A stretch of 33,157 nucleotides of DNA from Candidatus Woesearchaeota archaeon (lineage in GTDB: Archaea > Nanobdellota > Nanobdellia > SCGC-AAA011-G17 > PNOQ01), in assembly GCA_018693795.1 (NCBI GenBank), contig JABHMJ010000052.1:1-33157 (forward strand). The letters are read 5' to 3'. The stretch's first letter is position 1. Each line of letters opens with the position of its first letter. Positions 10,797-33,066 of this stretch are shown piece after piece. A program made the translations under genes and the position numbers. The notes below the pieces were generated by a model, which saw only the letters and a program-made list of their open reading frames with translations, did no database searches and was not told the DNA's origin.

Positions 10797-10804
10797 CTTT
10801 TAAA

Positions 10805-13800: not shown

Positions 13801-16543
13801 CAGTAATCGGATCAACAAAATCATTTGTCATCTCCCATTGAAATCTCACATCTTGAGTATCATGAACATAATTAGTTTCACTAACTAGTCCTTTAGAATT
13901 ATCATAGCTTTTAACAGATTCCACATAATTCCTCTTCCAACTATTATCTGTTAAATAACCAGCAACACAATCTCCATTAACATTTCTCCCAGCGCAATCA
14001 TTCCAATCCTCATCTCTAGATTCATAAGGATCTTTGTAATCATAAACCACTTCTCCAAACGAACCATCAGCAGGAGTTTTAGAAGTAATTGTCCTATATG
14101 CAATATAAACACCAGAACCAGCGCCAGCATTATCCCATGGGAAAGTATAAATAGTTTCCTGTGCAGCAAAATCATAAGTTTCAGAAGGTCTTCTAGTTAA
14201 AACACCAGGACCATATTCAAAAGCCGTATCTGTAGTATCAAATCCATCATTTGCAATGATTTTTCCAACTCTTATCCCTCCCCCGAGTTCATTCAATGGA
14301 GTTTCTCCATCTTCAATAGCACCATCCCAATCTGGAACATCTCCTGTCAGTCTTGGTGCAATATCATATTTATTAGGTTCATATTCATAGGTAACTTTTC
14401 CACTCGTAGGATAAGTTATTTCTTTTAGGGACCATGCATTTGCCCCACAACCATCTGCCATATCATCTACAATATAATTATCTCCATCTTTATTCTGACT
14501 ATAAAATCCCCAGAAATCAGTAAACTCTCTATTTATTCCCTTATTATCATATTCATCAACATCAAAAGAAGGATTACAATCTTCATAAATAAAAGAAGTT
14601 TCAGGATCATATGTAGTTACATCGCCAGAAGTATAATCATAACTTCGTTTTTGTACACTTTTTAAAGTTCTTTGGCCAAATTCAGCGCCATTGGGAGCTT
14701 TTAATTCTGGATCAGCAACAGTCCCCTCGGCATAATTAAAAACATAATCAAACAAATGCTGATTACCAAATTTATAATCCAAACTAATTTTATCTAATTG
14801 TTGAGCCCCATCATTAGAACCAGAATAAACAAAATCAGCTAAATGGGTGCTTGTTTCAATTGAATCAATATGAACTAAATCTCTATCTGTCTTTCTACTT
14901 CCAGATTTAACTGCAATTATCTTTTCAAACGTACCGGGGATTCCAACAAAAGTTTTGACTCCACCAGGCAAATCTTCTATATTACTATGAGGATCATAAC
15001 CAAACCAATTCCCAGAATAATCATCATCAGGATCCGCCCTACTATCTGCAATTTCACGTGCATTATAAATAGGAGTTTTATCAATATAATTCAAATTATA
15101 ATTTTCATAATTTAACTTAACCCAAGAACCCTCATCTCCATCCCCCACAATACCATCTCCATTATCCGAATAGTAAACACTTTTTATTTCATTTAAGTAC
15201 CAAGTATCTATGTGTTCTGCAACATTATTATAAAATCTGTATGGCTGCAAGTTAGAAATATAACCGAACGGGACAGGTTGACCAACCACGGGGGGAACAT
15301 AATCACATCCATTAGATTCAGAAGCAACTAAATATATATCTTCTGTACATTTATCACACTTATAGTACCTAATTTGATAACTATCTTTGGATAAATGGCT
15401 AGAACAATCTCCAATATCCTCACTCCAATCCTTAGTTATTGGACAAGGCAAATCTCCTTTCCAAACATAATCATTTCTTAAAGGTTCTACAACAGAATCT
15501 CCACAAGTTCTAAATCCACTTAAATCTTTTTGATAAGCATAAGGACAAATCCATGCTTTATTACATGCAGTATCATGATCATCTTCAGCAATAATATAAT
15601 AATCATAACTATGCCCGCCTGATGCACTAACTTCAATATAATCAGAAACACATTCTCCTTGAAGATTACAAACTTCAGAAGGTTCAAGAGAAGCTATTTC
15701 TTTATCAGTATACACGGCAGGACTATCTTCTATAGTAATTCCAGTCCAATAATCAGCCTCATTACTACTAATTGAACTAACAGAATCGGCACCACCAAAA
15801 ACATATTCAGTACCATCAACAGATTTAACAACAAAACTATTTATTTTTCCAGAAACATCTGTTGTATAATCAATATCTACTGCACTCCAACTTAAAGGAT
15901 AAAATTTACCATCCTCGCCAAACATCATTTGAGTAGCTCCCCCTGGAAAATTCAAAAACCAATTATCTTGCACCCCGCCCTCATCATCGGAACCAGATTT
16001 ACCTGCTTCATTTAATGAAAATAAACTTCCTTCAATAGAATTAAGTTCTATGAATGGTTCATCACTATAGGCCATGCATCCATCTTGTCCAAGACTACAG
16101 CCGCCAACGCAAGGAGTGGTAATATAACCTCCCGTACAAGAAACAGTATTACCGCATTGAGAATTATATCCATCAGGATCAACACAACCATAATTAGAAA
16201 TAGAAGCACCTATTTTTCCTTGATCATTAGTATCATCAATATAATTTTGAACACCCCTAACAACAGAGCCAGTTCCCAAATTCCAACCAAGTCCAACAGA
16301 ACTAGCTTCTTGGTGAGTTTTAATTCCAGCACTATAACTTAAAGATAATGGAAATCCCATTCTACCCGGGATCTCAAACAAAGGAACGCTAATAGACATA
16401 TCTCCATTATAAGTAGGATCTGTATTGCCATTTACAACATCAAAATTCCCAACTTCAGGAGAAGTTGAAGTATCAGATGCTGAAACAAAATAAACGTTAA
16501 AAATCAAACTAAATACAATAAAAACTAATACACCTTTTTTCAT
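10805..16543 (-). CDS. Secreted Rhs/YD-repeat (SpvB/TcC-like shell) protein with C-terminal dockerin-like EF-hand module
   Basis: Many YD repeats (YDSLGRINQTCNPNSGCENYTYDDNGNLLTVTDDRGFVVKNTYDALD...). N-terminal NGDMSISVPLFEIPGRMGFPLSLSYSAGIKTHQEASSVGLGWNLGTGSVVRGVQNY is SpvB-like. Start corrected from 16588 to the ATG at 16543 (MKKGVLVFIVFSLIFNVYFVSA signal peptide) because AAAGCTTTAAATATTG (BRE/TATA) lies inside the longer ORF. Confidence 0.9.
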   Translation of the reverse strand: MKKGVLVFIVFSLIFNVYFVSASDTSTSPEVGNFDVVNGNTDPTYNGDMSISVPLFEIPGRMGFPLSLSYSAGIKTHQEASSVGLGWNLGTGSVVRGVQNYIDDTNDQGKIGASISNYGCVDPDGYNSQCGNTVSCTGGYITTPCVGGCSLGQDGCMAYSDEPFIELNSIEGSLFSLNEAGKSGSDDEGGVQDNWFLNFPGGATQMMFGEDGKFYPLSWSAVDIDYTTDVSGKINSFVVKSVDGTEYVFGGADSVSSISSNEADYWTGITIEDSPAVYTDKEIASLEPSEVCNLQGECVSDYIEVSASGGHSYDYYIIAEDDHDTACNKAWICPYAYQKDLSGFRTCGDSVVEPLRNDYVWKGDLPCPITKDWSEDIGDCSSHLSKDSYQIRYYKCDKCTEDIYLVASESNGCDYVPPVVGQPVPFGYISNLQPYRFYNNVAEHIDTWYLNEIKSVYYSDNGDGIVGDGDEGSWVKLNYENYNLNYIDKTPIYNAREIADSRADPDDDYSGNWFGYDPHSNIEDLPGGVKTFVGIPGTFEKIIAVKSGSRKTDRDLVHIDSIETSTHLADFVYSGSNDGAQQLDKISLDYKFGNQHLFDYVFNYAEGTVADPELKAPNGAEFGQRTLKSVQKRSYDYTSGDVTTYDPETSFIYEDCNPSFDVDEYDNKGINREFTDFWGFYSQNKDGDNYIVDDMADGCGANAWSLKEITYPTSGKVTYEYEPNKYDIAPRLTGDVPDWDGAIEDGETPLNELGGGIRVGKIIANDGFDTTDTAFEYGPGVLTRRPSETYDFAAQETIYTFPWDNAGAGSGVYIAYRTITSKTPADGSFGEVVYDYKDPYESRDEDWNDCAGRNVNGDCVAGYLTDNSWKRNYVESVKSYDNSKGLVSETNYVHDTQDVRFQWEMTNDFVDPITGMSPSTDGNPDTETVVYYIKSTLPKLLGEISNVDGVTNTVIYSHNLENGMVNSVVELSSFGNRVSKTEFAFELYPEMKSKNMMTQTSGTNVYENSALRIPVASERTVWSKNVPGAVGDWMPKRSFSGVGSDEILTSTIIEYNQYGAPVEIMDAKGHSSFMYYGTNGDPCSQTSGAFGNNFITCVKNDLDHATKSHYNEFGMVDSITDLNDQEIKYNYDKMFRLKDVEKSTDAGSPKIHYDYTFALHDGALKSSNMNEVLTRQELGDGVEIQSIAVADGLGKSKQVQLVVDESTSIIQDIEYNELFKVDVEYKPVKLQSVAGKMIESMNPFEKLIYNIGLSNPDGMDEHYIISSKSEMDERIKSEISYQLNPLARADKVYPLGKSNADLFVQSNYGSQYDDELGVTLRKNSITDEEGKTSFSLSDEFGNVRKTVDPENNEAVFDYNIKNELINIDFEGIVTENKYDSLGRINQTCNPNSGCENYTYDDNGNLLTVTDDRGFVVKNTYDALDINIIEVEVDKGNGFVTRIISHYDDECSDFGAVKNKGRLCWVENYDDNGNAISKIVYGYDIGGRMIHLESYDGLYSGHNEVYSSYSFGYDFGDNILTILDELRSEMIIQEYNSLGQMERVGVLDFNNGQEIISSDYSYTDAGLINFSLYGNGVSTEYKYTDRDWVTDIEIYDDLINPMMFKEHYAYNLSGNLIGMADYDNYIRDSPEPFETNAVSFGYDSNSRLETVTDLDYYDEGEFNLDSISYIYDEVGNREYRNLDGDITNYVYDDPCSPGEFCYGRKDDRLMSTDNLDCTYDYDEVGNMIEKTCVGEDIVVYEYDYNHLMSRLYHKDPNTGSTTKGYNFIYDVLGRRIAKIGYNSPEGNVITRYSYGIGLNPNVVSETCAGDMNNDGEIGLSDHIYFVPQYMAADYYPSVDFYIDGQNNLADLVFYAGSIGDVYPNCGGISKDVGLMSDSQKCEYLCSSDKSLIEISGCSCKDSGKVIVPHDISE

Positions 16544-16595
16544 AACAAAAAATAGACCAAAAACAATATTTAAAGCTTTCCCCATCATTTATAAA

Positions 16596-18263: not shown

Positions 18264-18303
18264 AACAATAAAAATATTTTATAGTTTAAATAAGTTTCTA
18301 ACA

Positions 18304-18379
18304 CGGGCCCGACGGGATTTGAACCCGCGACCTCATCCTTAGGAGGGATGCGCTCTAATCCAAGCTGAGCTACAGGCCC
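18304..18379 (-). tRNA. tRNA-Arg(CCT)
   Basis: Full cloverleaf on the minus strand: GGGCCTG TA GCTC AGCTTGGATTA GAGC G CATCC CTCCTAA GGATG AGGTC GCGGG TTCAAAT CCCGT CGGGCCC G; anticodon CCT. Confidence 0.96.
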
Positions 18380-18417
18380 ATTAATAAAAAGATAATTATA
18401 CAATTTAAAAAACTAAC

Positions 18418-18431
18418 GAATGCGCTGGCCG
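18418..18431 (-). other. tRNA 3'-end-like fragment, att-like copy 1
   Basis: gaatgcgctggccg, identical over 14 nt to 28953-28966; minus strand reads CGGCCAGCGCATTC, like a tRNA acceptor 3' end. A diverged gactgaaccaat follows at 18448-18459. Confidence 0.55.
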
Positions 18432-18520
18432 AATACTAACCCAATGTGACTGAACCAATGAGACTCAAATTGTTTATTATGTTATTCTTATACTTTAGAA
18501 TTTAAATAATTAACTAAAAC

Positions 18521-18913
18521 TTACTCACAAGGACTTTCAGCTGTACAAAGGTTTTCACATCCACAATTCCCATCTTGACAAATTGCCCTTGCAGTAGGAC
18601 CAACAAGCATTTCAATCTCAAGAGTATCTAAACATTCAGAGTCATCACAATCTTCATCAACTTCACAAACAACATAACTTTAATTTTCAATACCCTCATA
18701 TATACATGACCCACAAGTTCCTTCACACAAATAAGTTTCACCATCACAATCTGCATCTTCTGAACAAATATCCTTAATAAGTTCTCCATCGCATTCACAG
18801 ATTGTTTCTCCTGCCAAATCCCAACCACCACACGGAACATTAGTAGCACATCCAGAAATAAATATAAAACTAAAAAATAATACAACAATAAAAATTTGTT
18901 TATTCATAATCAA
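18521..18913 (-). pseudogene. Cys-rich lipoprotein interrupted by one in-frame TAA
   Basis: Lipobox signal (MIMNKQIFIVVLFFSFIFISGC). The ORF stops at 18680-18682, but the same frame continues as SYVVCEVDEDCDDSECLDTLEIEMLVGPTARAICQDGNCGCENLCTAESPCE and stops at 18521-18523. Confidence 0.7.
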
Positions 18914-18962
18914 TTTTACATTTTAGAATTTAAATAATTAACTGAAAAAAAGAAAAAATTAT

Positions 18963-21215
18963 TTAATCCATCCTAAAATAAGGATATACAATTTTCTTAC
19001 ATCCTTCATTTATTCTTCCATCACAATTATCATCATACACAGTTCTACAATTTTCTTCCATAAAAGGATTTACTAATAACTTTGTATCATCACAATCATT
19101 TACTTCCATGAAGAAATTATCTCCATCTCCATCTGTAAAGTTAGAAACATTTACAAAAGTAGATTTTTCATCAAAGTTTCCATTTGGATCTTCTACTCTA
19201 AATGTTATTGTTTCCAATATATCTTCACCAGATATTGGAGAAATTGTTGCAATATGATTAATATCAATATCTATTGAAATATTATAATTTCCATAATAAG
19301 ACCAAGTTAATTGATTTATTGTATTATCTGGATCTGTAACATATTCATCCAAATCAAACTGGAAAATAGGATTATCTATGTCTATATACATTTCTGGCAA
19401 ATTAGACATAACTGGAGGAAGACTTCCTGTTGAGATAACATTAATAATTCTTGATGCAAAATTATTTGTTTCATCTAGTTCTTCTACTTCTTCATATGGA
19501 TCTACATCAATATAGATATTATGCTCTCCTGCCATAGCAGTCCATGGAGATAATATCACTTGAGTTCCATTTTCTTCAATATAGATAATTTCTTCAGCAA
19601 TCATATTAGAAGGATCATCATAATATATCTGAACATAAAAATTAGTTGTGTTTACACTCTCTGAATTGTGAATCATTGAGAATATTGTTATTTCTTCTCC
19701 CTCATCTGGGCTTGGGTTAGAAAAGAACATATCATTAGGTTCAACTATTAAATCAGGAACAGTTCTTACTTGGAAAGGTTTGAATGCAATATTATTAGTT
19801 TCATTCATTTCAATTATTTCATTATTTGAATCAATTTCAATATAAATTTCATAATCTCCCGGAATTGTATTCCAAGCAGATTGAACTGCATAAACATTTT
19901 CCTTAGCTATTTCTTCTTCTACCACTTTTGGAAGATTTTCATACTTTGTTTTTTTAGTTGTATCAATAATTTGATAACCATTTGATATCATATCTTCTCC
20001 ATCATAAACATAAAAATAAACTTTAATACTTTCTGGAGTTATTTCTCCAACATCATGAATTAAAGCAGTAAACCAAATAAGTTCTCCTTGAGTAGGATTA
20101 TTATCACTCAAATATATGTCTGATTCAGAAATTGATAAATCTGCAACAGGAGTATTCAAAACAGTTATTGTAAAATTTTGGGTATTTGAATAATTAAAAG
20201 CACTTTCATTATCAGAATACTCTGCCAATATACTTATTTCATTTTCTCCTGCTTGAAAATAATTTGGAGTCCAATTAATCCAACGTGTTGGCCCATTTTC
20301 TGCAATAATCATTCCTTTTGGTGGGTTCAAAAGAGATAGAGTTAAAGTCCCATAATCTTCTGGAACTAAGCTTGTAATAATTTCATAATTATATAATTCT
20401 CCTTCTATTGCGGTTAGATTGGGAGTTGAATTAAAATGTGGCCAACCAGAACTCCCAACAGGCCAATAATCTCTATTCGTGTAGGATTCCCTCTCAATAT
20501 TGTAATAAATAGGATATCCAGAATTATTATGATCAAAATCATCCCAATAATTTCCCATTTTTCCAAAATTCCAAATATTGTGCCTATAACTGTAAGCATT
20601 TAAAGAAACACCAGATTCATTTTTATTATTAGAAAAATTATTTGCCCAAATAATATTATTTTCCCCCCCGTTATAATGGAATATAATCCCTTCTTTATTA
20701 TCTCTAATTATGTTTCCAGAAATATTATTATCACTGCTATAACCAAAATGAATTCCTCTATAATTGTTATAAATCTCATTACCTTTTATAGTTCCATTAG
20801 AAGCAAGAGATCCATAAATCCCATATGAATTATTTCTAAGAATATTATTTAATATTTGGTTATATTCTGAACCATAAGAATATATTCCTTTATCAAAATA
20901 TTCAATTACACAATTTTTTACTGTATTATTCATTAGTCTAGGCCATGGGCCGCCAGTAGATACCCCCCCACTTCCATTAAAACCACCTTGAGATAAATTT
21001 CTGGATATTTTATGACCTTGGCAATCTAAGACAACATTCGAATTTAAAAACAAACCATCATTATTACAATCCAATAAATCATAAGTTAAAACAGTATCAA
21101 CTGTTACATTATCTCCACAATTACAAGTAACATTTCCACCACAAAATGCACCTTCAACAGAATTAACTATAAATAATAAACTAAATAAACATAATATTAA
21201 CAAGCCCCTTTTCAT
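18963..21215 (-). CDS. Secreted parallel beta-helix (NosD-like) protein with CARDB-like repeats and C-terminal MopE-like metal-binding motif
   Basis: 750 aa; signal peptide; NNTVKNCVIEYFDKGIYSYGSEYNQILNNILRNNSYGIYG beta-helix repeats; two CARDB-like segments (PDLIVEPNDMFFSNPSPDEGEEITI...ELDETNNFASRIINV); C-terminal DGDGDNFFMEVNDCDDTKLLVNPFMEENCRTVYDDNCDGRINEGC. Confidence 0.85.
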   Translation of the reverse strand: MKRGLLILCLFSLLFIVNSVEGAFCGGNVTCNCGDNVTVDTVLTYDLLDCNNDGLFLNSNVVLDCQGHKISRNLSQGGFNGSGGVSTGGPWPRLMNNTVKNCVIEYFDKGIYSYGSEYNQILNNILRNNSYGIYGSLASNGTIKGNEIYNNYRGIHFGYSSDNNISGNIIRDNKEGIIFHYNGGENNIIWANNFSNNKNESGVSLNAYSYRHNIWNFGKMGNYWDDFDHNNSGYPIYYNIERESYTNRDYWPVGSSGWPHFNSTPNLTAIEGELYNYEIITSLVPEDYGTLTLSLLNPPKGMIIAENGPTRWINWTPNYFQAGENEISILAEYSDNESAFNYSNTQNFTITVLNTPVADLSISESDIYLSDNNPTQGELIWFTALIHDVGEITPESIKVYFYVYDGEDMISNGYQIIDTTKKTKYENLPKVVEEEIAKENVYAVQSAWNTIPGDYEIYIEIDSNNEIIEMNETNNIAFKPFQVRTVPDLIVEPNDMFFSNPSPDEGEEITIFSMIHNSESVNTTNFYVQIYYDDPSNMIAEEIIYIEENGTQVILSPWTAMAGEHNIYIDVDPYEEVEELDETNNFASRIINVISTGSLPPVMSNLPEMYIDIDNPIFQFDLDEYVTDPDNTINQLTWSYYGNYNISIDIDINHIATISPISGEDILETITFRVEDPNGNFDEKSTFVNVSNFTDGDGDNFFMEVNDCDDTKLLVNPFMEENCRTVYDDNCDGRINEGCKKIVYPYFRMD

Positions 21216-21395
21216 ATTAATAAACCCCCTTACTAGAAAAAAGGAAGTTAGTTTTAATATAAAAAATTGTCGCCTTTTCAGTAACTATAAGATTATTTTA
21301 TGTATAATTATTGTATGTGACTATCATAAAAATAATATACCTCCCCTACTCCACAAGATTACCTAGTTTTTTGCTATGGCCATTTGAAAACAAAA

Positions 21396-21485
21396 ATGGC
21401 AAAAGAAAAAAACATTGGAGAAGAAATAATCTCCAAACTAAAAGAGATGAAGAAAAAATCAATCAGAGGTGATGAAGATGGTTAA
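21396..21485 (+). CDS. Short ORF upstream of and overlapping the RHH gene
   Basis: MAKEKNIGEEIISKLKEMKKKSIRGDEDG; 29 aa; overlaps the start of the next gene (translational-coupling layout). Confidence 0.35.
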   Translation: MAKEKNIGEEIISKLKEMKKKSIRGDEDG

Positions 21486-21684
21486 AAACTCTCAAATTCA
21501 CCTAATGGTCGATACGGAACTTTATGAAAAGCTAAAAAGTGACGCAAGGGCGAGATACAAATCTCTATCTGCCCATTGTACAGACAAATTAAAGGAAGAT
21601 CCTGAAACAATTAAGATTCAGGAAACACTTTATAATTTGATGAAGGAAATAGCTGACATAAAATCTAGAGTACTCAACTCTTAG
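21478..21684 (+). CDS. Small ribbon-helix-helix-like DNA-binding protein
   Basis: MVKNSQIHLMVDTELYEKLKSDARARYKSLSAHCTDKLKED resembles an RHH fold; SD GAGGTG 7-12 nt upstream of the ATG at 21478 (ORF-track start 21469 is GTG). Confidence 0.55.
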   Translation: MVKNSQIHLMVDTELYEKLKSDARARYKSLSAHCTDKLKEDPETIKIQETLYNLMKEIADIKSRVLNS

Positions 21685-21692
21685 AACGCCTT

Positions 21693-21730
21693 GGTGCGGT
21701 TCTCTCTCAACTTGTTGAGAGAATCGTACC
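21693..21730. terminator. Long stem-loop (intergenic, convergent genes)
   Basis: ggtgcggttctctctcaac-tt-gttgagagaatcgtacc; stem with G-T wobbles and a 2-nt bulge. Confidence 0.6.
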
Positions 21731-21748
21731 ATTTATTTAATAAATTAA

Positions 21749-21767
21749 AGAGATCGGAACGATCTCT
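21749..21767. terminator. Perfect 8-bp stem-loop agagatcg-gaa-cgatctct within a longer imperfect inverted repeat
   Basis: Direct reading; outer flanks taataaattaaa / actttatttatta extend the symmetry. Confidence 0.6.
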
Positions 21768-21777
21768 ACTTTATTTA

Positions 21778-22389
21778 TTAGTAGTGCAATGTCTTCGCAT
21801 CTGTTATACATGATTTATTCAATAATTGAGTTTCCGATTTTATTAAAAAAGGCCCATGATTTAGGTCTACTCCTAAAGAATCACTATTCAATTTTAGTAA
21901 TTTAGAGATTTTGTCCACTTTTATCATAAAAGTATCCTCTACATCAATTTCTGCACATATCCTCTCCACTTCTTCCGCGCAATATTTTTCTTTATTCAAG
22001 ATATAATGATTAAACTCAGGTTTAGTAGATTCTTTAGTAACTATAATAACTCCATCTCTCTCTTCAAAAAAAATTTCAACAAAAAATAGAGGTTTAATAG
22101 ATCCATCAGAATCAACAATTAAAGGATATCCATAAAATAAAGGCGTGCCCATAGAACCTAATTTACAGTCTTTTAAAAAATCTTCAATTTGGGGAGTCTT
22201 CCTAATCCCAATCTGCTCTTGTCTTTCAATAAAAAATCTTTCCTTCTTGAAAAATTTAGAGAAAAATTTCTTTCCTTCCAACCTATAATTGAATTTAAGA
22301 GAAGACATATCTTCTTTTTCTAAACAAGCAATATAATAATCCAATAAAGAAATAAACTCATCCTTCGAATCTATATGTTTTAGCATCAT
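21778..22389 (-). CDS. Unassigned protein, possibly an N-terminal fragment of a larger (helicase-like) protein
   Basis: 203-aa ORF with RLEGKKFF...LGSMGTPLFYGYPLIVDSDGSIKPLFFVEIFFEERDGVIIV; resembles from memory the N-terminal part of large SF1-type helicase proteins, but no catalytic motif is present. Confidence 0.4.
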   Translation of the reverse strand: MMLKHIDSKDEFISLLDYYIACLEKEDMSSLKFNYRLEGKKFFSKFFKKERFFIERQEQIGIRKTPQIEDFLKDCKLGSMGTPLFYGYPLIVDSDGSIKPLFFVEIFFEERDGVIIVTKESTKPEFNHYILNKEKYCAEEVERICAEIDVEDTFMIKVDKISKLLKLNSDSLGVDLNHGPFLIKSETQLLNKSCITDAKTLHY

Positions 22390-22427
22390 AATGGAGCAAT
22401 CAAGGTACTTTTAAAGTTTTTCTTAAT

Positions 22428-22703
22428 CTATTCATCCACAATATCATTAACCCATTTGTGAGAAGATTCTAATTTTATTTCTTCAATTATTTTTCCCCTT
22501 GCAAGAACTGCAGTGTTAAATCTTTGAGGATTTCCATTTTTGCGAATTGCAGTACGTGACAATATATCAAATATTTTCTTGATTTTTTCCGGAATATCGC
22601 CTACCTCTTGGAGTAAAATTATATCTGGTTTGTGTTTCAGCAATAAATCCCAAACTAAACTATCTTTATTTGCCCCTTTTATATTCCAAGATATAACCCT
22701 CAT
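22428..22703 (-). pseudogene. Truncated endonuclease/exonuclease/phosphatase (EEP) family N-terminus
   Basis: 91 aa, MRVISWNIKGANKDSLVWDLLLKHKPDIILLQEV is a clear EEP N-terminus (N and E catalytic residues), but the ORF stops before the D/H catalytic half. Confidence 0.75.
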
Positions 22704-22940
22704 AAATTATAGTTAAAATTTTTAGCATATAAATCTTTTCTTCATTACAATAATATTTATATACATATAATATTATATTTTATATACGGAGGAAATAGTC
22801 AATGTTTACTTTTGTTAATTGTCTCTGAGAAAATTATTGGTTTTAATAAAGCTAGTGAACAAAATTAAACGCTATGGATCTATTTGAAAAATCAATATTT
22901 TTTACGTTAAATTTAAATAGAAGTAAATTAAAAAATATCT

Positions 22941-23573
22941 ATGATAAAAAAAATAGTAACACTTTCTGCTTTATTATTGATTTTTATTATTCTTCCACTT
23001 ATTTCGGCCCCGCTTATTTATGATCCTCCAAGAGAAGATTTAAAGGAAGGAGTTATTTTAGAAAAATTAGATTTGAGCTATGGAGATTCACTTGCGCGTT
23101 ATTCAGTGGAAGTGGATTCAATTCAAATGGTTATTGCATTACCTACTTATTTAAAGAATTATGATAAATTTTCAAAAGGAGACAATGTAATATTTTTTGG
23201 AGAAAAATGGAGAGGACATAATGATGATTTGAACTTAGAAGCATATGGCGTAAGCGATATAAAAAAATCTAATGATATTTATTGGCCAGATGAAAAAATA
23301 ATAATAAACAAAATTTATGCCTCTCCTTCACAAATTTATATTATGCCAATTGTGTTACTCTTATGTCCAATTAGTAGTGATGATTGTTCAATTGGAGATA
23401 AATTTATTTCTTTGATTGGTGTTTTAGCTTTTGTTGGATTAATTATATTTTCATTTAAAAATAGACATAAAAAGTTGGGTATATTAATTGCAATATTAAT
23501 TTTTTTGATAATTCTTCAGCTAATTGTAATATATGATCTTTCGCAATTAAGTTGGTGGCATTTATATCAATAG
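22941..23573 (+). CDS. Membrane protein of unknown function
   Basis: 210 aa; N-terminal hydrophobic signal/anchor and two C-terminal TM segments. Confidence 0.6.
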   Translation: MIKKIVTLSALLLIFIILPLISAPLIYDPPREDLKEGVILEKLDLSYGDSLARYSVEVDSIQMVIALPTYLKNYDKFSKGDNVIFFGEKWRGHNDDLNLEAYGVSDIKKSNDIYWPDEKIIINKIYASPSQIYIMPIVLLLCPISSDDCSIGDKFISLIGVLAFVGLIIFSFKNRHKKLGILIAILIFLIILQLIVIYDLSQLSWWHLYQ

Positions 23574-23615
23574 TTTTGTAACGAAATGTTTATATATAGC
23601 TATTATGATACTAAT

Positions 23616-23716
23616 GAAGTACTTGATTTGAGTTGTCTTTCGGGATTTCTCTTGTCTTGTGCACGTACTTTCACTTGGTTAGGCTTTCGGGTTTTTCCTT
23701 GTGTTCGTACACCTAA
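23616..23716 (+). ncRNA. Candidate tandem structured element (two related stem-loops)
   Basis: TATA-like gtttatatatag at ~23588-23599. Unit A: AAGTAC...GTACTT stem; unit B: TTAGG...CCTAA stem. Both loops share ctttcggg(a/t)ttt(c/t)tc.ttgt. Confidence 0.35.
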
Positions 23717-23761
23717 TATTCTAAAGAATTAATTGATCTAAATTTTGGTTATTTTGTTAAG

Positions 23762-23780
23762 TATATACTAGAGTATATAC
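23762..23780. promoter_or_regulatory. Palindromic operator-like site (tatatactagagtatatac), copy 1
   Basis: With 23761: gtatatact-ag-agtatatac, perfect 9-bp arms; 18/19 identical to 27076-27094. Confidence 0.6.
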
Positions 23781-23820
23781 TTTAGAAAGATTTATAAGTT
23801 ATATTTTAGTATATTATTGT

Positions 23821-25131
23821 ATGAAATATCGCTCCCCTAATTTGGAAATGTTATTGGAAAATAGAATATTAAATAATACTTCTATTGCCTCTAGATACTT
23901 TTTTGAAGAGGGATTTGTTCCTTTTTTGAGTAACGTGGAATTGACAGGCATTGTTACAAAATTAAAGAATTCTATGCTTCATGAATCTGGAGAAATGCAA
24001 AAAATAGGGGTAGAAGCAGAATTATATTTTAGGGAAATATTATCAAAAAAAAATAAATCTATATTCGAAATTTATCTTGATTTAAAAGAAGGGAGGATTA
24101 CTGGGAATAAAGCTAAAAAAATCTGGTCTGAGATATCCCCTAAATTAGGAGACTATGAAATTAAAAATAAGTATATACAATCTAAAATAACCCCCACAAT
24201 TGAAGATGATCGGAAACTTTTTGAAAAAGCTATCGAAGGAATTGTAAGAAAAAGAACAGAAAATTCATTTGATAAATATGATTCAAAAACTCAATTAAGG
24301 AAGTTATCCAAATTACAAATAGATCGATTTGTAGAAACTGCAGAATTTATAAGAACAAATTCTACAGATATTCTTTATGAAAATGGACTTCATGATATTT
24401 TTCTTGATTCTATAAAAGGAAATGAAAAAATTAATTTTCTTTATTGTGTTTGTTTAAGATTTACTCATGATGAAGGAATTCCAGATATAAGTGAACATTT
24501 AGATCCACTTATAAAAATTGATAAAAATGGAAATTTTCAAAAACATACTGGAGAGGCTCAGAGATATCAACTTGAAAAAATAATTGAAATTTCAAAATTT
24601 ATTGGGAATAATTTTCCAAATATAAATCAAGAAGTTATGATTGCTGATTTTGATGTGCATAAATATGGTGTAGATAGTAGTAAAATAATGTTTCCTAAAT
24701 CTAAAAATTATCTTGATTCAGTTTCAAATTTTATTGAAGGCATACCTGTTACTGGGGAAATGGACTATATGGCTGGAATTGGGTTTGACCCTGATCTGTT
24801 TAAAAAAATATATCTTTCATTATTAATTAATGATGGTTCTTTTTTTCCTAAAGAAGATATGACAAGGGAACTTGAAAATTGTGAAAAACATAGATCTAGA
24901 TCGATAAATAATTGGACAAAAAATAATAGCATACACTACGTAGCTTCTTCATTAGCACGTAAGTTGTCTGAAGGGATTACAATGTCTGAATCTCCAATAA
25001 ATCATGTAGTAATGTTATTTAATGATAATGCTGTACCTGGAACAAGGTTTAATTATTTAACTAATAAAAAATTGCCATTTATTAGTTTACCGAAATTAGG
25101 TAGGCCTATTGATGATTACCTATATTATTAA
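23821..25131 (+). CDS. Hypothetical protein
   Basis: 436-aa ORF; TATA-like atttataagt and a palindrome upstream; no family recognised. Confidence 0.75.
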   Translation: MKYRSPNLEMLLENRILNNTSIASRYFFEEGFVPFLSNVELTGIVTKLKNSMLHESGEMQKIGVEAELYFREILSKKNKSIFEIYLDLKEGRITGNKAKKIWSEISPKLGDYEIKNKYIQSKITPTIEDDRKLFEKAIEGIVRKRTENSFDKYDSKTQLRKLSKLQIDRFVETAEFIRTNSTDILYENGLHDIFLDSIKGNEKINFLYCVCLRFTHDEGIPDISEHLDPLIKIDKNGNFQKHTGEAQRYQLEKIIEISKFIGNNFPNINQEVMIADFDVHKYGVDSSKIMFPKSKNYLDSVSNFIEGIPVTGEMDYMAGIGFDPDLFKKIYLSLLINDGSFFPKEDMTRELENCEKHRSRSINNWTKNNSIHYVASSLARKLSEGITMSESPINHVVMLFNDNAVPGTRFNYLTNKKLPFISLPKLGRPIDDYLYY

Positions 25132-25135
25132 ATTT

Positions 25136-25849
25136 TTAAGCTATTCTATATTTTTTGTTTAAAATATTTTTTGTAATTTTTGGTATGGAATTTAAACTTT
25201 TTTCAATTTCCTTTTCAATTATTTTTTTTTGACTAATAGTTAGATTTTTTTCAAACCCTACAACAGTTTTCCAAGGGTCAATAAGTAATCTTCCACTTTG
25301 ACTAATTAAATACACTTCCACGTAAGATTTATATTTCTTTGATAGCATGTTTGCAATATTTTGAGCAGCTATATGATATATTTTTCCTATATGATATACT
25401 GGATTTTTTCCTGCTGCACCCTCCATTGTATAGGGTTTAGTTTGCGAAATTAACCCATTTATTCTATTTCCCCTTCCAACTAAACCTTCATCGCCGCTTT
25501 CTATAGAGGACCCAATAGCAGTTAAATATAGTTCTCCAGTTTCGAAATCATCTCTAGTGTTCATAGAAATTTTAATTTTATATTTTTGAAATCTTTTTTC
25601 AAAAAAATTTTTAATATATTTATTCATTGCAACTAGATTTTTTTTATATTCTCTTTCAGATTTTACATATGCTGCTATTTGTGGAATACAAATGGTTACG
25701 TCTAGTTCACCATTTATTTTGGACGCCATTATTTTTATATCTGTGCCTAACCATGGTTTATTTTTTTTAAATGAATGTTTGCAAAAAGATTCTTCCAGAG
25801 TTAGTATGGATTTTTCAAACTTTGTTAAAGGTGCGAATCCAACACCCAT
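25136..25849 (-). pseudogene. N-terminally truncated archaeal-type S-adenosylmethionine synthetase
   Basis: GVGFAPLTKFEK...ISMNTRDDFETGELYLTAIGSSIESGDEGLVGRGNRINGLISQTKPYTMEGAAGKNPVYHIGKIYHIAAQNIA matches the archaeal MAT C-terminal region. The N-terminal half (HPDxICD region) is absent, and the conserved NDTS lies just upstream in frame without a start codon. Confidence 0.8.
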
Positions 25850-25985
25850 TGAAGTATCATTTGATCCAAGAAAAGTTAATTCTTTAATATCCTCCTTTCC
25901 CCTTGGTTCAAACCAATTTCCTCTGGTCCCTTCCCTAATTTTTTCAACATTTGTTTTACCTGGGCTACTCTTTGTTGAGATATTA

Positions 25986-26669
25986 TTATGTATTTAAATC
26001 TCCTTCTTTGAATTCATTAAATTTTTCAAGTATATTTTCTTTTAATAATTTAATTGGGGAATTTGTTTTATTTGGATCAAGCATATTTTTTATTTTATCT
26101 TCTTCTAAATCTGTAGTTTCTTTTATTTCTTTTACAAGTTTAGAAACTGCACTTCTCTTATCATCTAAATTAAAACTATCATCAAGTAAATTTTTTATTT
26201 CTCCATCTTCACTATCAAAATAATCGTTCATTATTTCAACCAATTTTCCTTCATCTTCATCAAAATAATCCTCTATTAATTCTTTAAATTGAGCCATTGG
26301 GCTATTTTTATTTTTGAAATCAAATGTGTCATCTAATTTAGAAGTAAATTTAGATAAAGGACTATCTTTTTTTTGTATGTTGAAAGTATCTTCTATTTTT
26401 TTGTTTATTTCTTTACTTTGTACTTCAAAATTTCTTTTTGAATCTTCTAAAAATTTATTAAATTCTTTTTCAACAAAATCAACATTCTCAGCTAAAACCA
26501 TCTGTTTTAAACCTACACAACCAAGAATTATTGCTTTTTCTACCCAAGAATCTAAATCTTTTTTATCTTCTAGAAAATCATAAACCGCAGGATTAGAAAT
26601 TTTAAGTCCATCAATAAGAACTTCTTTTTTTGCTTTTTTTAATTTAATATTTGTTTTTCTTTCTACCAT
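25986..26669 (-). CDS. Hypothetical repeat/coiled-coil protein, possibly truncated at its 3' end
   Basis: 227 aa with repeated F(N/D)(I/F/L)..K(D/N)SP(L/M)..(F/L) units (FNIQKKDSPLSKF, FDFKNKNSPMAQF, FNLDDKRSAVSKL); abuts the truncated AdoMet synthetase fragment. Confidence 0.5.
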   Translation of the reverse strand: MVERKTNIKLKKAKKEVLIDGLKISNPAVYDFLEDKKDLDSWVEKAIILGCVGLKQMVLAENVDFVEKEFNKFLEDSKRNFEVQSKEINKKIEDTFNIQKKDSPLSKFTSKLDDTFDFKNKNSPMAQFKELIEDYFDEDEGKLVEIMNDYFDSEDGEIKNLLDDSFNLDDKRSAVSKLVKEIKETTDLEEDKIKNMLDPNKTNSPIKLLKENILEKFNEFKEGDLNT

Positions 26670-26712
26670 TTTTTATATCATTTATCATTTATGTATTAAT
26701 ATAAAGGTTTCC

Positions 26713-27057
26713 ATGCTTGCCAAACACCAGGAAATTCTTTTTAAAGTATTATTCTTTCCCCAATTTATGCCTTTTGATCCAAGCAAATATTCAAATGAAG
26801 AGATTATGAATCTTGTAATATATGGGCATATAAGAAAAGGAATGAGATCTATTTTTAGGGGCCCTTTTGGTGTTTTCCCTTGTAATATGTGTAGATGGCA
26901 AGCATGGGATTTTGATCATTCAGAAGCAGAAATAGTATCTCTATTGTACTGGTTTGGAATCGGACGTTTATGTCAGTGGTGCCAAATAACTCTTTTTTGG
27001 GAATTAAAAAAAAGAAATCTTGGTTTAGAGATTGGGAAAGTTGTTTATGATTTTTAG
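26713..27057 (+). CDS. Small hypothetical protein with two CxxC motifs
   Basis: 114 aa, CNMCRWQAWDFDHSE...CQWC; start may be the downstream ATG (MPFDPSKYSNEEI). Confidence 0.55.
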   Translation: MLAKHQEILFKVLFFPQFMPFDPSKYSNEEIMNLVIYGHIRKGMRSIFRGPFGVFPCNMCRWQAWDFDHSEAEIVSLLYWFGIGRLCQWCQITLFWELKKRNLGLEIGKVVYDF

Positions 27058-27075
27058 TTAATTTTATAAATAACA

Positions 27076-27094
27076 TATATACTAGAGAATATAC
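27076..27094. promoter_or_regulatory. Operator-like site (tatatactagagaatatac), copy 2
   Basis: 18/19 match to 23762-23780, ends 6 nt before the ATG at 27101. Confidence 0.55.
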
Positions 27095-27100
27095 ATTAAA

Positions 27101-27559
27101 ATGCCAGATAATATAATACATTGTGAAATAAGTAAAAAAAGAACAGGAAAAAAATTCTCTGAATTACATAAATGGATCGATAATAAATCTTTATTAAAAC
27201 ATCTAGGCATAGATCATCGAAGACACAGGCATTATTACAATATAAGAGATGAAGAAATTATTTTATCTAGATGGGGTGCAGAGGGAGTAATTGAATGGCT
27301 TTTTCATATAGCAATAGATAATTTAGAAACTGCTCAAAAAAGAGCTAGAAAATTAGAAATCTCAGAAAATAACTATATTCAAATTGCTTTTGGTAAAGAA
27401 AGCGGATTTATCTATTTGGATTTTGAAGAAGTAAAAAAGCAAGATATTATAGAAAAATTTACAATTGGAGAAATAAATAAACACGAAATAAAAGAACAAA
27501 GAATAAAAGATATTATGGAAAGATATGGTGAACCAAATAACTTTGCCACAGCAAGTTAA
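27101..27559 (+). CDS. Conserved hypothetical, His-rich (resembles the DUF6915-type 'HTWFD/HRALRHH' family)
   Basis: 152 aa; FSELHKWIDNKSLLKHLGIDHRRHRHYYN...EGVIEWLFHIAIDN; family name from memory only. Confidence 0.5.
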   Translation: MPDNIIHCEISKKRTGKKFSELHKWIDNKSLLKHLGIDHRRHRHYYNIRDEEIILSRWGAEGVIEWLFHIAIDNLETAQKRARKLEISENNYIQIAFGKESGFIYLDFEEVKKQDIIEKFTIGEINKHEIKEQRIKDIMERYGEPNNFATAS

Positions 27560-27729
27560 CTTTCTTTGAGCATACTCTTCTTTTTCTCCAAATCTTCAGT
27601 TTCGTAACCCATCCTATACCTAAACAACGGACAATCAAAAACTTGGCACATACGCACCTCTTTTGGACAAACCGAACATTCCAAACACTTCAAACGAATA
27701 GATTTACCCCGAGTTAAACGTTTAGACAT
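27556..27729 (-). CDS. Small Cys-rich putative zinc-binding protein, translationally coupled to the integrase
   Basis: Not in the ORF track: MSKRLTRGKSIRLKCLECSVCPKEVRMCQVFDCPLFRYRMGYETEDLEKKKSMLKES (57 aa). CxxCxxCPKEVRxCxxxDCPLFRYRMG resembles small phage/MGE zinc proteins. Overlaps the integrase 3' end by 8 nt. Confidence 0.7.
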   Translation of the reverse strand: MSKRLTRGKSIRLKCLECSVCPKEVRMCQVFDCPLFRYRMGYETEDLEKKKSMLKES

Positions 27730-28876
27730 TTTTCACCCCAGATAACTCATTAACTAGCTCAAGAATCTTAGACATTTGATTTTCCATCAAACCAATTCTA
27801 TCACTAAGCAAATTATTCTCTTGCTCAGACTTATCCAACTTACGTTCAATTTCAGTTTTATCAATACCAATTAACAAATCTTCTTCAGAAATTGTATCAC
27901 TCATCCCAAGAAACTCAGAATAATAATAAATCTTATCAGATTTCTTCCATCCAAACCTATGCATAATTTCTCTTTCCTTCTTATACTTAGGAGTCCAAAA
28001 ACAACAAGAAATATGTCTAAGATCATACATAGTAATCTCAGAATACTTCTTTCCAGCTAAAGTAACAGAATCCCCAAATAATCTAAAACAAGCTCTTTTC
28101 AAATATTTGTTAACACATGGAGCACTTATGTCAAAAACATAATCATTACCACTCAAACCTTTAGATTTAATATATTCTTTCAATAATCCTTTACTTAGCA
28201 ACAAATTAATTTTACGACCAAAAGTTTTGGAAACCTCATCACGAATATCTAACTTACTAAAATCTTCACTTAAATCAGAAACCCTGACATTAACTAATTC
28301 AGTGGGAGCCCGTATTCCAGAATCAAAAATAAACATTATCAAAACTTTATAATCAAATTTTACATTATCACATAATCTACGAATTTCTTCTTCAGTAAGA
28401 TAAACCCATTTAGGTTTTTCTTGACTAGTATCTAAATCTATAGTAATATCCTCAATTTTCTTATCTTTCTTTTTACAAACTTTCTGATACCAATGCCAAA
28501 ATGCCTTAAAGGTTTTAACATAATCTCCAACAGATTTATACTGCTTGCCATCATTACGTAAAAGTTCTCCATTTCTCATTTTAGAAAACAATGTGTGTAT
28601 CTCTTCTTCAGAAACTTTAGTAATATCTTCAACTCCAAATAATTCTTTAGTTTTTTTAAAAATAAACCTACTTTTATCTTTTATAGAAATCAACCTTCCA
28701 TAACTTCTCGGACCTTTCTTAGAATCCTTAGAAACGTTTAAACCCATTTCCATGTCTCCTAAGTATTGTAAAAGTATTTCTCCACTCCTAGTACCTATGT
28801 CTGCATCTTTAAAGCAATTGTAATTTATTTTCCATTTCAAAAATTTTTCTTTATTCTTGTAAGGATCTATTTTCAT
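27722..28876 (-). CDS. Tyrosine recombinase/integrase
   Basis: MFIFDSGIRAPTELVNVRVSDL (R box), TMYDLRHISCCFW (second box), KKSDKIYYYSEFLGMSD (Tyr box). Start set at the ATG at 28876 with SD gaggtg; the ORF-track start at 28909 is TTG. Confidence 0.88.
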   Translation of the reverse strand: MKIDPYKNKEKFLKWKINYNCFKDADIGTRSGEILLQYLGDMEMGLNVSKDSKKGPRSYGRLISIKDKSRFIFKKTKELFGVEDITKVSEEEIHTLFSKMRNGELLRNDGKQYKSVGDYVKTFKAFWHWYQKVCKKKDKKIEDITIDLDTSQEKPKWVYLTEEEIRRLCDNVKFDYKVLIMFIFDSGIRAPTELVNVRVSDLSEDFSKLDIRDEVSKTFGRKINLLLSKGLLKEYIKSKGLSGNDYVFDISAPCVNKYLKRACFRLFGDSVTLAGKKYSEITMYDLRHISCCFWTPKYKKEREIMHRFGWKKSDKIYYYSEFLGMSDTISEEDLLIGIDKTEIERKLDKSEQENNLLSDRIGLMENQMSKILELVNELSGVKNV

Positions 28877-28952
28877 ATTGTTTACACCTCTTTCGATTTT
28901 TATAAACAATCTGTGTTATTCTTGTAGTCCCATAGAATTAGTCAATAAGTAT

Positions 28953-28977
28953 GAATGCGCTGGCCGGGACTCGATTC
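28953..28977 (-). other. tRNA 3'-end-like fragment, att-like copy 2 (next to the integrase start)
   Basis: gaatgcgctggccgggactcgattc; minus strand GAATCGAGTCCCGGCCAGCGCATTC resembles a T-loop/acceptor 3' half. Confidence 0.65.
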
Positions 28978-29048
28978 ATTCTGTTCAACTCGCCGAATTC
29001 GAATAAGTCTGCTAAGTACACTAAGTAAGTTGGTTATAATTTAAATAA

Positions 29049-30200
29049 TTAACTTATTTTAAATAAATCCACAAAAGTTAAAAATTCATAATTTGATGGA
29101 GATAATTCAATTATTACATTAACTAATTCACCAGAACAACATTCTTCAAAACAATCATTAACTCCTTGTGTAGTTCTTTTAGAAGAATCATACTCACAAA
29201 TCATTTCTTTATTTAACAAATTAGAATCTATCACATTATTTTCTAAAAACCAAAATTTAACAATACAATTTCCTGCCTGTTCACCCTGAATCTCATATCC
29301 ACGAAATATCCCCATAAACGGTTCAAAACCAAGAGCGAAAGTTCCTTGTGAAATCTCACACGATCCTAATCTAACTCCAAATGAATCAGTAAACCCGATG
29401 GCATCTTCAGGACCGCATAGCATTTCTGAAAGATCTTCACTATAACAATCTAATATGGTGTCTGGATTAGTAACAGAATATGTTTGATTTTCTTCAGGTT
29501 CTTCTTCCTCAATAACACAAATATTATTTGTACATTCATATCCATCAACACAACCAAAATCAGTTATACATTCAACACATGTCTGATGGATAGAAGGATT
29601 AGAACTACTATATACACAAACATAATTTCCATCATCACAGTTTGTGCATGTTTGTGTACAATCATCATTATTTGTACATCCAGGAATATTAGAAGGATCA
29701 ATATAACTACAATCTTGAGAGGTAGCAGGCTTATTTTTAGTTGTTTCACAAGAATTTAAATCTATACAATTTCTTGTTTGAATTTCTTGTTCTGAACAAG
29801 AACTCCAAGTTTCACAATTCCAATTCTCATTACACATATTTTCATGAATTTTTTTAATATAAATTTCTAAAACCATCTTCTCAATTCCATTTAATTTAAG
29901 TTGTATATCATAAAACCCATCATCATCTAAATCAAGTTTTATTTCTTCTCCCATTTCAATGTCTATTTGAGAAGGATTACCTTGAATAATTAAATTTACT
30001 GAATTACTATCTATAGAATTAACCTTTAGAGCATGTTCTTGATTATCAAACATAAATTTTTGTCCTTCATTTTCTTTTAAATGTAAATTAGTTCCTTTAG
30101 AGAATTCTTCATTTGAGATTATTTTTGTTTCTGAACATCCAAAAATAAAAATCAAACTAAAAACAAATATCATAAATAAATAATTTAATTTCATAATCAA
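29049..30200 (-). CDS. Cys-rich lipoprotein with TSP1-like module
   Basis: 383 aa; lipobox MIMKLNYLFMIFVFSLIFIFGCS; NENWNCETWSSCSEQEIQTRNCIDLNSCETTKNKPATSQDC (TSP1-like) plus a CTNNDDCTQTCTNCDDGNYVC Cys-rich stretch. Confidence 0.8.
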   Translation of the reverse strand: MIMKLNYLFMIFVFSLIFIFGCSETKIISNEEFSKGTNLHLKENEGQKFMFDNQEHALKVNSIDSNSVNLIIQGNPSQIDIEMGEEIKLDLDDDGFYDIQLKLNGIEKMVLEIYIKKIHENMCNENWNCETWSSCSEQEIQTRNCIDLNSCETTKNKPATSQDCSYIDPSNIPGCTNNDDCTQTCTNCDDGNYVCVYSSSNPSIHQTCVECITDFGCVDGYECTNNICVIEEEEPEENQTYSVTNPDTILDCYSEDLSEMLCGPEDAIGFTDSFGVRLGSCEISQGTFALGFEPFMGIFRGYEIQGEQAGNCIVKFWFLENNVIDSNLLNKEMICEYDSSKRTTQGVNDCFEECCSGELVNVIIELSPSNYEFLTFVDLFKIS

Positions 30201-30239
30201 TTTTGTATTTAAGGATTTAAATAATTAACTAAAAAAGAC

Positions 30240-30261
30240 TGCGCTGGCCGGGACTTGAACC
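30240..30261 (-). other. tRNA 3'-end-like fragment, att-like copy 3
   Basis: tgcgctggccgggacttgaacc; minus strand GGTTCAAGTCCCGGCCAGCGCA = T-loop plus acceptor 3' strand. No matching 5' half nearby. Confidence 0.65.
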
Positions 30262-30535
30262 AAATAGTTCAAGACGTGAAAATAGATAATCCAACTTTTA
30301 AGTAAACTAACTAACTTAGTCGGCCTTAATATACCTTTCTAATGCCTATAAGAAACCGATATCACATATAAGAAACCTATTCCAATACAGAATCAACTCA
30401 AAAAGCCCCATTTACCTTGTAATCCCGTTAATATCTAGCGTGGGGCGTGACATATATGTATTACTATGGTCTAAATTGAATTTGAAATGAGATATTTAAT
30501 ACGTATAAGATAAATATACACGAAAAAATAATTTG

Positions 30536-30892
30536 AATCAAGGCATATCAAATAACATTGAATTAATTGCAAAGATAATTGTAAGCAATGGATTTATTTG
30601 ACTATTATTTACTCATCGACAGTGCTTTCAAATAATCATAATTATCAAATAATTACTTAATTTAGGGAAGTAATTTAAGTTTATAATCATTATGTTTTTG
30701 ATAATCTAACACTTAAAGGGCTGTGAGATATCCCAATCAATAAGCTTAATGATAAGGATAAAAGGAATTTGATTTAAGGCTTATATGAAACTCTTATCTT
30801 ATCCAAAAGAATAAACAGAAATTAATCGGCAGATAGGCTCGAAGTGTGTTCGAACCCATAGTTATTTGATATTTGATAACGCATGCCTTGAT
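30536..30892. ncRNA. Candidate structured noncoding RNA (family unknown)
   Basis: Closing long-range pairing ATCAAGGCAT-ATCAAATAAC with GTTATTTGATA-(11 nt)-ATGCCTTGAT; internal hairpins at 30566-30589, 30651-30675 and 30836-30856; no long ORF. Confidence 0.35.
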
Positions 30893-30899
30893 ATATGAA

Positions 30900-31001
30900 C
30901 TAAATAGCCCGGGAAGAAATGATGAATAGGGTACCCGCTAAAATCATAATTAGGCCCAGGAGTAAGAATTGATTTTTATTTAGTGTTTTTAGTTGTTTCA
31001 T
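30900..31001 (-). CDS. 33-aa single-pass membrane peptide, translationally coupled to the HNH gene
   Basis: MKQLKTLNKNQFLLLGLIMILAGTLFIISSRAI; its ATG overlaps the HNH stop (TAATG). Confidence 0.55.
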   Translation of the reverse strand: MKQLKTLNKNQFLLLGLIMILAGTLFIISSRAI

Positions 31002-31315
31002 TATAACCTCTTAACCTCTAAAGCTTTTTTCTTGTGTAAATCTCTATGGTCCTTATAATGTAATAGAATTAAATTCTCTCGTTTATTGTTCTCTCTGTCT
31101 TCATCTAGATGATGTACTTCAAATCCTTTTGGTATTTTACTTTTAGGAAAATACATTTTTTGGGCAACTCTCCTATGGGCCCAAACCCATTTCTTTTCTT
31201 TGTTATCATAATACTGTTGATATTGGTTTCCTTCTCTGCCTTTCATTCTAACTCGTAAAGGTTTACCATAATACTTGATTGTTTTTTCCTGGGATGTTAT
31301 TATTTTATTTTTCAT
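31001..31315 (-). CDS. Small HNH endonuclease
   Basis: 104 aa; KGFEVHHLDEDRENNKRENLILLHYKDHRDLHKK HNH signature. Confidence 0.85.
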   Translation of the reverse strand: MKNKIITSQEKTIKYYGKPLRVRMKGREGNQYQQYYDNKEKKWVWAHRRVAQKMYFPKSKIPKGFEVHHLDEDRENNKRENLILLHYKDHRDLHKKKALEVKRL

Positions 31316-31512
31316 TTTGATTTATTCCAAATATAGCTAACTATTAAAGCAATAATAAATATTGGGATAGTTACAAGAATTGCAGAAAGAATATTAAGTA
31401 AACCAAACCATTCTATTTCTTCTCCAGCAAAACTAAATATAGAGCTTATTCCTGCAAGGATTCCCCAAACAATTAGTGGAATTTTAAATACTTTCTTTTG
31501 TTTTTTATTCAT
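31312..31512 (-). CDS. Small two-TM membrane protein
   Basis: 66 aa, two hydrophobic segments; SD-like gagg upstream of the ATG. Confidence 0.6.
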   Translation of the reverse strand: MNKKQKKVFKIPLIVWGILAGISSIFSFAGEEIEWFGLLNILSAILVTIPIFIIALIVSYIWNKSK

Positions 31513-31529
31513 TTCTTATCCTCTTTCTT

Positions 31530-31569
31530 TTGTCGTCTTTCTGTTTTTGTGCGACAAGACTATGGCACT
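31530..31569. repeat. Repeated hairpin element, copy 1
   Basis: TTGTCGtctttctgtttttgtgCGACAAgactatggcact; inverted repeat TTGTCG/CGACAA. Confidence 0.7.
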
Positions 31570-31575
31570 TCTAGA

Positions 31576-31962
31576 CTACCCATGAACAGAACATTCACAA
31601 ACTAAAACCCCGTCATCATCACAATAATGAGATTTATACCTAACTGAAATACGAGTGTTCTCATGAAAATAACTATTACTTGGACAAACACCTCTACATT
31701 CTATTTCTAAAATCCAATTTCTTGTTTCTTCATCATTATATATTCTATTACTATTACCACCATAAATAGGGTCATTATTAATAATATCCTCACAATTACT
31801 GCCAGTGTTATATGTTGTTGGAACTTCAGATATTGCATTTTCTAATTCAATTTGTTCTAAGTTAGGAATCCTTATTCCAAAAAACCAGCTAATAGCATAA
31901 ACAACAATTAATATTGTTAAAATTGCGAAGAAAATATTAACCCAATTTGTTTCTTTGACCAT
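31576..31962 (-). CDS. Membrane-anchored hypothetical protein
   Basis: 128 aa; N-terminal TM (VNIFFAILTILIVVYAISWFFGI), Cys-containing exterior domain. Confidence 0.6.
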   Translation of the reverse strand: MVKETNWVNIFFAILTILIVVYAISWFFGIRIPNLEQIELENAISEVPTTYNTGSNCEDIINNDPIYGGNSNRIYNDEETRNWILEIECRGVCPSNSYFHENTRISVRYKSHYCDDDGVLVCECSVHG

Positions 31963-31991
31963 ACTAAAAACGATGAATAGTATTATTTAAA

Positions 31992-32032
31992 CTTGTCGTA
32001 AAACTTGTTTAGTGCGACAAGACCATGGCACT
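31992..32032. repeat. Repeated hairpin element, copy 2
   Basis: CTTGTCGtaaaacttgtttagtgCGACAAGaccatggcact; shares gtgcgacaagac(t/c)atggcact with copy 1. Confidence 0.7.
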
Positions 32033-32315
32033 AAAAACGCTCCCCTTTAATTGTTTAATTTTTAATAAATTTACACAGAGTATAAAGGGCTTTTAGTTAG
32101 ACCCCTTTTTAATTCTTTGAACGCCCTCATATGTCTAAAATACCCTACCTAAAAATTAACTAGTTTCTATATAAATAAATTAGTGTATAAAATAGAAGTG
32201 TAAGATTGACAAAATATAAATTAAACAGTGTATTGGTTATTTAACATCATTTTTTATATTTTAATATGGGAACGATTAGATAATTTTATAAAATAAGATT
32301 TCTAATTTTAATCAA

Positions 32316-32927: not shown

Positions 32928-33066
32928 TTGTTTGCCAAGCATAGCCACAGGGCAAAATGCAGCCGGAATTCAAGTAACCCCAAACCTGAAGTTCTATTTT
33001 CTAATTTATTAAATGAACCTCTTTCCTTGTCTAACAAACTAATGTAATTTAGATAAAAGAAAAATA

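Follow-up and report, generated by a model that had tools for sequence, protein, structure and literature searches.

The window analysed here is an entire contig (C17, 33,157 nucleotides) of the incomplete draft assembly (662 kb, 53 contigs) of a Candidatus Woesearchaeota archaeon (G000). Its right-hand half contains a series of units with copies of a tRNA-Gly 3' end between them (att1, att2 and att3), and this series appears to continue on a second contig, C34. The features are:

18303-18380, minus strand: tRNA-Arg(CCU), a chromosomal gene identified with ARAGORN that forms the distal border of the array; tRNA-Gly(UCC) is its neighbour in the relatives G005 and G001
18420-18431, minus strand: att1 (CGGCCAGCGCAT, 12 nt), remnant of the original tRNA-Gly 3' end, acceptor strand alone
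18432-18955, minus strand: unit Y, with a small lipoprotein gene (ORF 18680-18913, 77 aa) and both ends in common with unit X
18956-28955, no strand assigned: body of element C, between att2 and unit Y, with genes for a NosD-like beta-helix protein, a truncated endo/exonuclease, unknown proteins and an integrase
27722-28909, minus strand: tyrosine integrase of element C, 395 aa (phrog_1, 4e-14), starting 46 bp from att2
28956-28971, minus strand: att2 (AGTCCCGGCCAGCGCA), the last 16 nt of tRNA-Gly with one mismatch
28972-30239, minus strand: unit X, 1.28 kb, a single gene and no integrase
29049-30200, minus strand: lipoprotein gene of unit X, 383 aa, recognised as an ORF with a lipobox
30240-30261, minus strand: att3 (GGTTCAAGTCCCGGCCAGCGCA), 21 of 22 positions identical to the intact tRNA-Gly 3' end (last 22 nt, one mismatch)
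30262-33157, no strand assigned: distal part of element A, with an HNH endonuclease, a CAAX protease and small membrane proteins
33022-33156, minus strand: C34-C17 junction, 135 bp shared without mismatch, as the reverse complement, with the very end of C34
C34:10468-17557, strand not given: proximal part of element A, with an integrase, several small ORFs, a prim-pol, a helicase-like gene and a resolvase

Read from the tRNA side, the order is tRNA-Gly, element A, att3, unit X, att2, element C, unit Y, att1 and tRNA-Arg. With the contigs joined, the feature coordinates give a total insertion of ~21.7 kb between tRNA-Gly(UCC) and tRNA-Arg(CCU). Elsewhere in the window (3906-16588), two giant RHS/YD-repeat-like proteins are encoded between the gene for a 594-aa protein and a DAC gene, and these two genes are adjacent in G001, a member of the same genus. 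C34 begins with a sequence 87.6% identical to window positions 2727-3168, which adjoin this RHS/YD-repeat locus.

The sequence GCGCTGGCC occurs at 18422, 28957 and 30241, each time on the plus strand, where 0.01 occurrences are expected in the window and no shuffle gave three. A preliminary description of this DNA had noticed three same-orientation copies resembling a tRNA 3' end; they lie far beyond chance relative to the shuffles, with the second at 28957 rather than 28956. In the 662-kb assembly TGCGCTGGCC occurs five times (the three copies in the window, the 3' end of a tRNA-Gly(UCC) gene on C34 and one site on C41), and its reversed control not at all. The match on C41 looks like chance and sits within an ORF-like, coding-like stretch. 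The tRNA-Gly(UCC) gene (C34:10396-10467) is intact and ends in the att sequence; it is the genomic tRNA that the preliminary description had suggested looking for. The sequence GGTTCAArTCCCGGCCAGCGCA is common to it and att3, AGTCCCGGCCAGCGCA to att2 and att3, and CGGCCAGCGCATTC to att1 and att2. Thus, the second copy has the mosaic flanks earlier ascribed to it. The copies had also been read as acceptor/T-loop 3' halves. All three are tRNA-Gly(UCC) 3' ends; att1 is short, comprises the acceptor strand alone and has no recognisable T-loop. Lacking anywhere in the window is a tRNA-Gly 5' half, as had been noted, and the sole complete tRNA that ARAGORN identified there is tRNA-Arg(CCU), 40 bp from att1. 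Decay of the copies rises with distance from the tRNA (att3, 22 nt with one mismatch; att2, 16 nt with one mismatch; att1, 12 nt), which fits an order of age.

The 135-bp junction sequence is found at only two places in the assembly, the end of C34 and the right end of the window. Joining the two contigs on the basis of this terminal overlap and of synteny would lead to the intact tRNA-Gly. By the feature coordinates, element A then spans ~9.9 kb, with its tyrosine integrase gene 86 bp downstream of tRNA-Gly(UCC). Its helicase-like protein has Walker-type motifs recognised by eye and no Pfam match, and no close relative was found in the viral contigs scanned. Two tandem units had previously been proposed, one at 18.4-28.95 kb with a recombinase and one at 28.95-30.24 kb with a lipoprotein. 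Both exist, but the array is larger, as element A, with an integrase of its own, continues on C34.

We located the site in relatives via the DAC gene beside tRNA-Arg. In G005 (Candidatus Woesearchaeota), tRNA-Arg(CCU) is followed by tRNA-Gly(UCC) with 39 bp between them, and in G001 the two are 12 bp apart; this arrangement is the empty site. The tRNA-Gly(UCC) gene of G001 holds a 42-nt intron (L070 3488-3600). The flank on the tRNA-Arg side (DAC gene, pilin-like gene, tRNA-Arg) is common to the relatives, and the tRNA-Gly-side flank on C34 matches them as well, with genes for a 161-aa protein (81% identical to that of G001, 68% to that of G005) and an 861-aa protein. The 40-bp spacer between att1 and tRNA-Arg aligns with the spacer between tRNA-Gly and tRNA-Arg of G005 (score reached by 2 of 1000 shuffles) and with the corresponding stretch of another relative, G008 (1 of 1000). 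The sequence now 3' of the intact tRNA-Gly gave no alignment to the spacer of either. In G008, ~1.6 kb with a decayed border separates the two tRNAs, and the site therefore looks like a hotspot.

Element C (~10.5 kb, from att2 to the att1 side) carries the second integrase of the array. Also present (25136-25849) is a fragment of an S-adenosylmethionine (SAM) synthetase, the C-terminal part only. The integrases of elements A and C are 25% identical, and both retain the catalytic positions; in that of element C, Arg, Lys, xxxR and Tyr align, with Tyr replacing the usual His of HxxR. Their closest solved relatives are XerA/XerC-like recombinases. We considered and rejected an integron-type integrase (IntI): the two score 26.6 and 19.7 bits with TIGR02249, a model whose cut-off is 265. 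In five of the seven genomes with good matches (G052, G027, G153, G118 and G105), the relative of the element C integrase starts a little way downstream of an intact tRNA, either tRNA-Gly(GCC) or tRNA-Asp, and shares its direction; for the other two matches, both truncated, no tRNA was found. Since the integrase gene starts so near att2, and its relatives lie similarly close to intact tRNAs, element C probably once abutted tRNA-Gly and was later displaced by newer arrivals. Among the 10 proteins compared with PHROGs profiles, only the integrase and primase matched. Scans of viral contigs gave one weak integrase match and none for two cassette-end patterns, and the element genes scanned include no convincing defence gene.

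Units X and Y encode no recombinase. The lipoprotein of unit X matched no Pfam or NCBIfam family, and the proteins of the two units have little similarity outside the signal peptide. The unit ends, in contrast to these dissimilar proteins, are shared (proximal z 18.3, distal z 6.8; repeats D2-D4), which fits exchange of cargo but may instead reflect gene duplication. Unit Y is probably an old cassette that has lost its inner att. The distal arms of element A and unit X are only weakly similar (z 1.9), so one integrase may, but need not, serve both.

Comparable arrays occur at other tRNAs of this genome. On C43, tRNA-Ser(GCU) borders a 0.6-kb unit whose single gene encodes a GNAT protein; beyond it come an att, an integrase-bearing element of ~8.9 kb and another att (L143 711-10400). 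Downstream of tRNA-Val(UAC) on C49 are four single-gene units (encoding proteins of 199 aa and 66 aa, a Fic protein and a cytidine deaminase; L155 2575-5158). The copies of the tRNA 3' half that bound these units include two degenerate ones, and units one and two have conserved distal ends. At tRNA-Glu(CUC) on C37, an integrase gene lies directly downstream. In the stretches scanned around 31 tRNAs (268 kb), every 3'-end copy lies downstream of the tRNA that it matches and on that tRNA's strand; upstream regions, opposite strands and the surroundings of other tRNAs have none. Also on C49, a copy of the last 10 nt of tRNA-Gly(GCC) (GGACCGCGCA) lies ~63 bp beyond that gene, with two short hairpin-like repeats between (L155 5730-5870), and is possibly a minimal att remnant.

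The tRNA-Ser(GCU) site can be compared with that of a sister species, G002, whose flank is 92% identical (L181 10217-10904). Identity is complete across the 74 bp of tRNA-Ser 3' exon and proximal unit end, and 88% across 76 bp of the distal end, whereas the gene between encodes a GNAT protein in G000 and an unrelated lipoprotein in G002. As regards attC-like folding, the unit ends at tRNA-Ser form inverted repeats (z 5.4 in G000 and 3.6 in G002), which those of unit X do not (z 1.9). The tRNA-Ser gene itself has an intron in G000 (L143 711-828) and none in G002 (L181 10217-10302). A 340-aa ORF beside the G002 repeat was considered as an integrase and rejected; it is a topoisomerase IB. Of 190 genomes searched, G000 and G002 alone have the tRNA-Ser cassette end, and G000 alone that of tRNA-Val. 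Around 112 tRNA predictions in four relatives (some stretches overlapping), the tRNA-Ser repeat of G002 is the only such repeat.

We conclude with high confidence that site-specific integrative elements form a tandem array here, anchored at the tRNA-Gly(UCC) 3' end. This rests directly on the repeats, the intact tRNA, the contig junction, the empty sites and the integrase geometry. As for a tRNA-targeted element, intact tRNA-Gly(UCC) forms one border and its 3'-end copies att3, att2 and att1 lie beyond it; these share one orientation, and two integrases accompany them. Very probably, at least three mobile units have stacked serially at this one gene, so that tRNA-Arg is now ~22 kb away. Serial insertion had been suggested from the window alone, and the intact tRNA-Gly(UCC), the second integrase-bearing element beside it and the empty sites in G005 and G001 bear the suggestion out. 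The intervening DNA is absent from these two relatives, contrary to a fixed pattern of three fragments. We predict that the tyrosine integrase of an element recombines a tRNA 3'-end copy on the circular form of the element with its chromosomal counterpart, and that each such integration would leave the element flanked by an intact tRNA and, at its opposite end, by a 3'-end copy (att). As the tRNA is rebuilt every time, the target would be reusable, newer units would lie nearest the tRNA and older ones would be pushed outward. Element C probably arrived together with unit Y or later than it; unit X would have come next and element A last. Units X and Y may have been mobilised in trans by the integrase of a neighbouring element, presumably also through circular intermediates.

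How units X and Y came to be without a recombinase gene has a second explanation, compatible with a tandem array, to which we give slightly less than an even chance: they may be remnants of larger elements from which the integrase was deleted. Integrated elements often suffer deletion, and both att1 and the inner border of unit Y are decayed. The tRNA-Ser units of the two sister species, which have common ends and comparable sizes around unrelated single genes, argue against deletion, as do the four consecutive single-gene units at tRNA-Val. A single ~22-kb element that entered once and contains att copies by chance would agree with all units being enclosed by a single intact tRNA and a single chromosomal border. 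It is improbable given two such divergent integrases, both immediately following a tRNA 3' end or att, the unequal decay of the att copies, and the same layout at tRNA-Ser of this genome, where the sister species has the small unit alone. Although the draft is incomplete and in 53 contigs, an assembly or binning artefact is very improbable: the three repeats lie inside one contig, both flanks match those of relatives and the 135-bp junction is confined to two contig ends. Split tRNA genes are known in Nanoarchaeum equitans, the relatives indicate a DPANN archaeon, and the three 3' ends have no 5' halves, but we reject separately encoded tRNA halves as scarcely conceivable because a complete tRNA-Gly(UCC) gene is present, the fragments lack the anticodon arm (att1 even the T-arm) and a single intact gene occupies the site in relatives.

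Returning to serial insertion, we tentatively propose, as a possibility that may well prove wrong, that some DPANN archaea have an integron-like cassette system landing at tRNA-Gly, tRNA-Ser and tRNA-Val genes. Its units would be single-gene and integrase-less, with conserved ends and exchangeable cargo, and would be moved in trans by the tyrosine integrases of their neighbours. Should the single-gene units prove to be true cassettes, they would provide DPANN archaea with a means of exchanging genes anchored at tRNAs. The case shows a very small archaeal genome gaining genes without damage to an essential tRNA, and is a worked example that combines an intact target, empty sites and a probable arrival order.

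The array is a further example of the known serial insertion at RNA genes, and the exchangeable single-gene units are its most interesting part. Serial landing at one RNA gene is established in Dehalococcoides (PMC3146451), Actinomarinales (PMC7771536), Methylophilaceae (PMC10872708) and archaea generally (PMC6563490, PMC8371274). For tRNA-anchored arrays in DPANN archaea, we found no description in the literature searched, which excluded most subscription journals. The ssrA islands of Dehalococcoides (PMC3146451) resemble the present array in that multiple tandem islands are bounded by 20-bp copies of the RNA-gene 3' end, integration genes lie at the edge nearest the RNA gene and 15 islands have no integration module. 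They differ in being bacterial, in their tmRNA target (here a tRNA), in their CcrA/B-related serine recombinase (here tyrosine integrases) and in their dehalogenase cargo. The additive flexible genomic islands of Ca. Actinomarinales (PMC7771536) and fGI-2 of Methylophilaceae (PMC10872708) are likewise small tRNA-anchored gene units with direct repeats of the tRNA end, but in bacteria, and the portions of these accounts consulted do not describe conserved unit ends with swapped cargo. As far as the portions consulted go, work on Thaumarchaeota elements (PMC6563490) and archaeal tyrosine recombinases (PMC8371274) shares with our case tRNA 3' ends, att sites that are short (in Thaumarchaeota, a median of 17 bp) and arrays formed by reuse of a site; unlike here, those portions concern mostly whole proviruses, conjugative elements and casposons, with no DPANN archaea or single-gene units. 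Archaeal integrons, reported from nine archaeal phyla with Nanoarchaeota among those named (PMC9668308), are also arrays of single genes with common recombination ends. They rely, however, on IntI and attC, whereas the arrays described here are anchored at a tRNA gene and have integrases scoring far below the integron-integrase cut-off.
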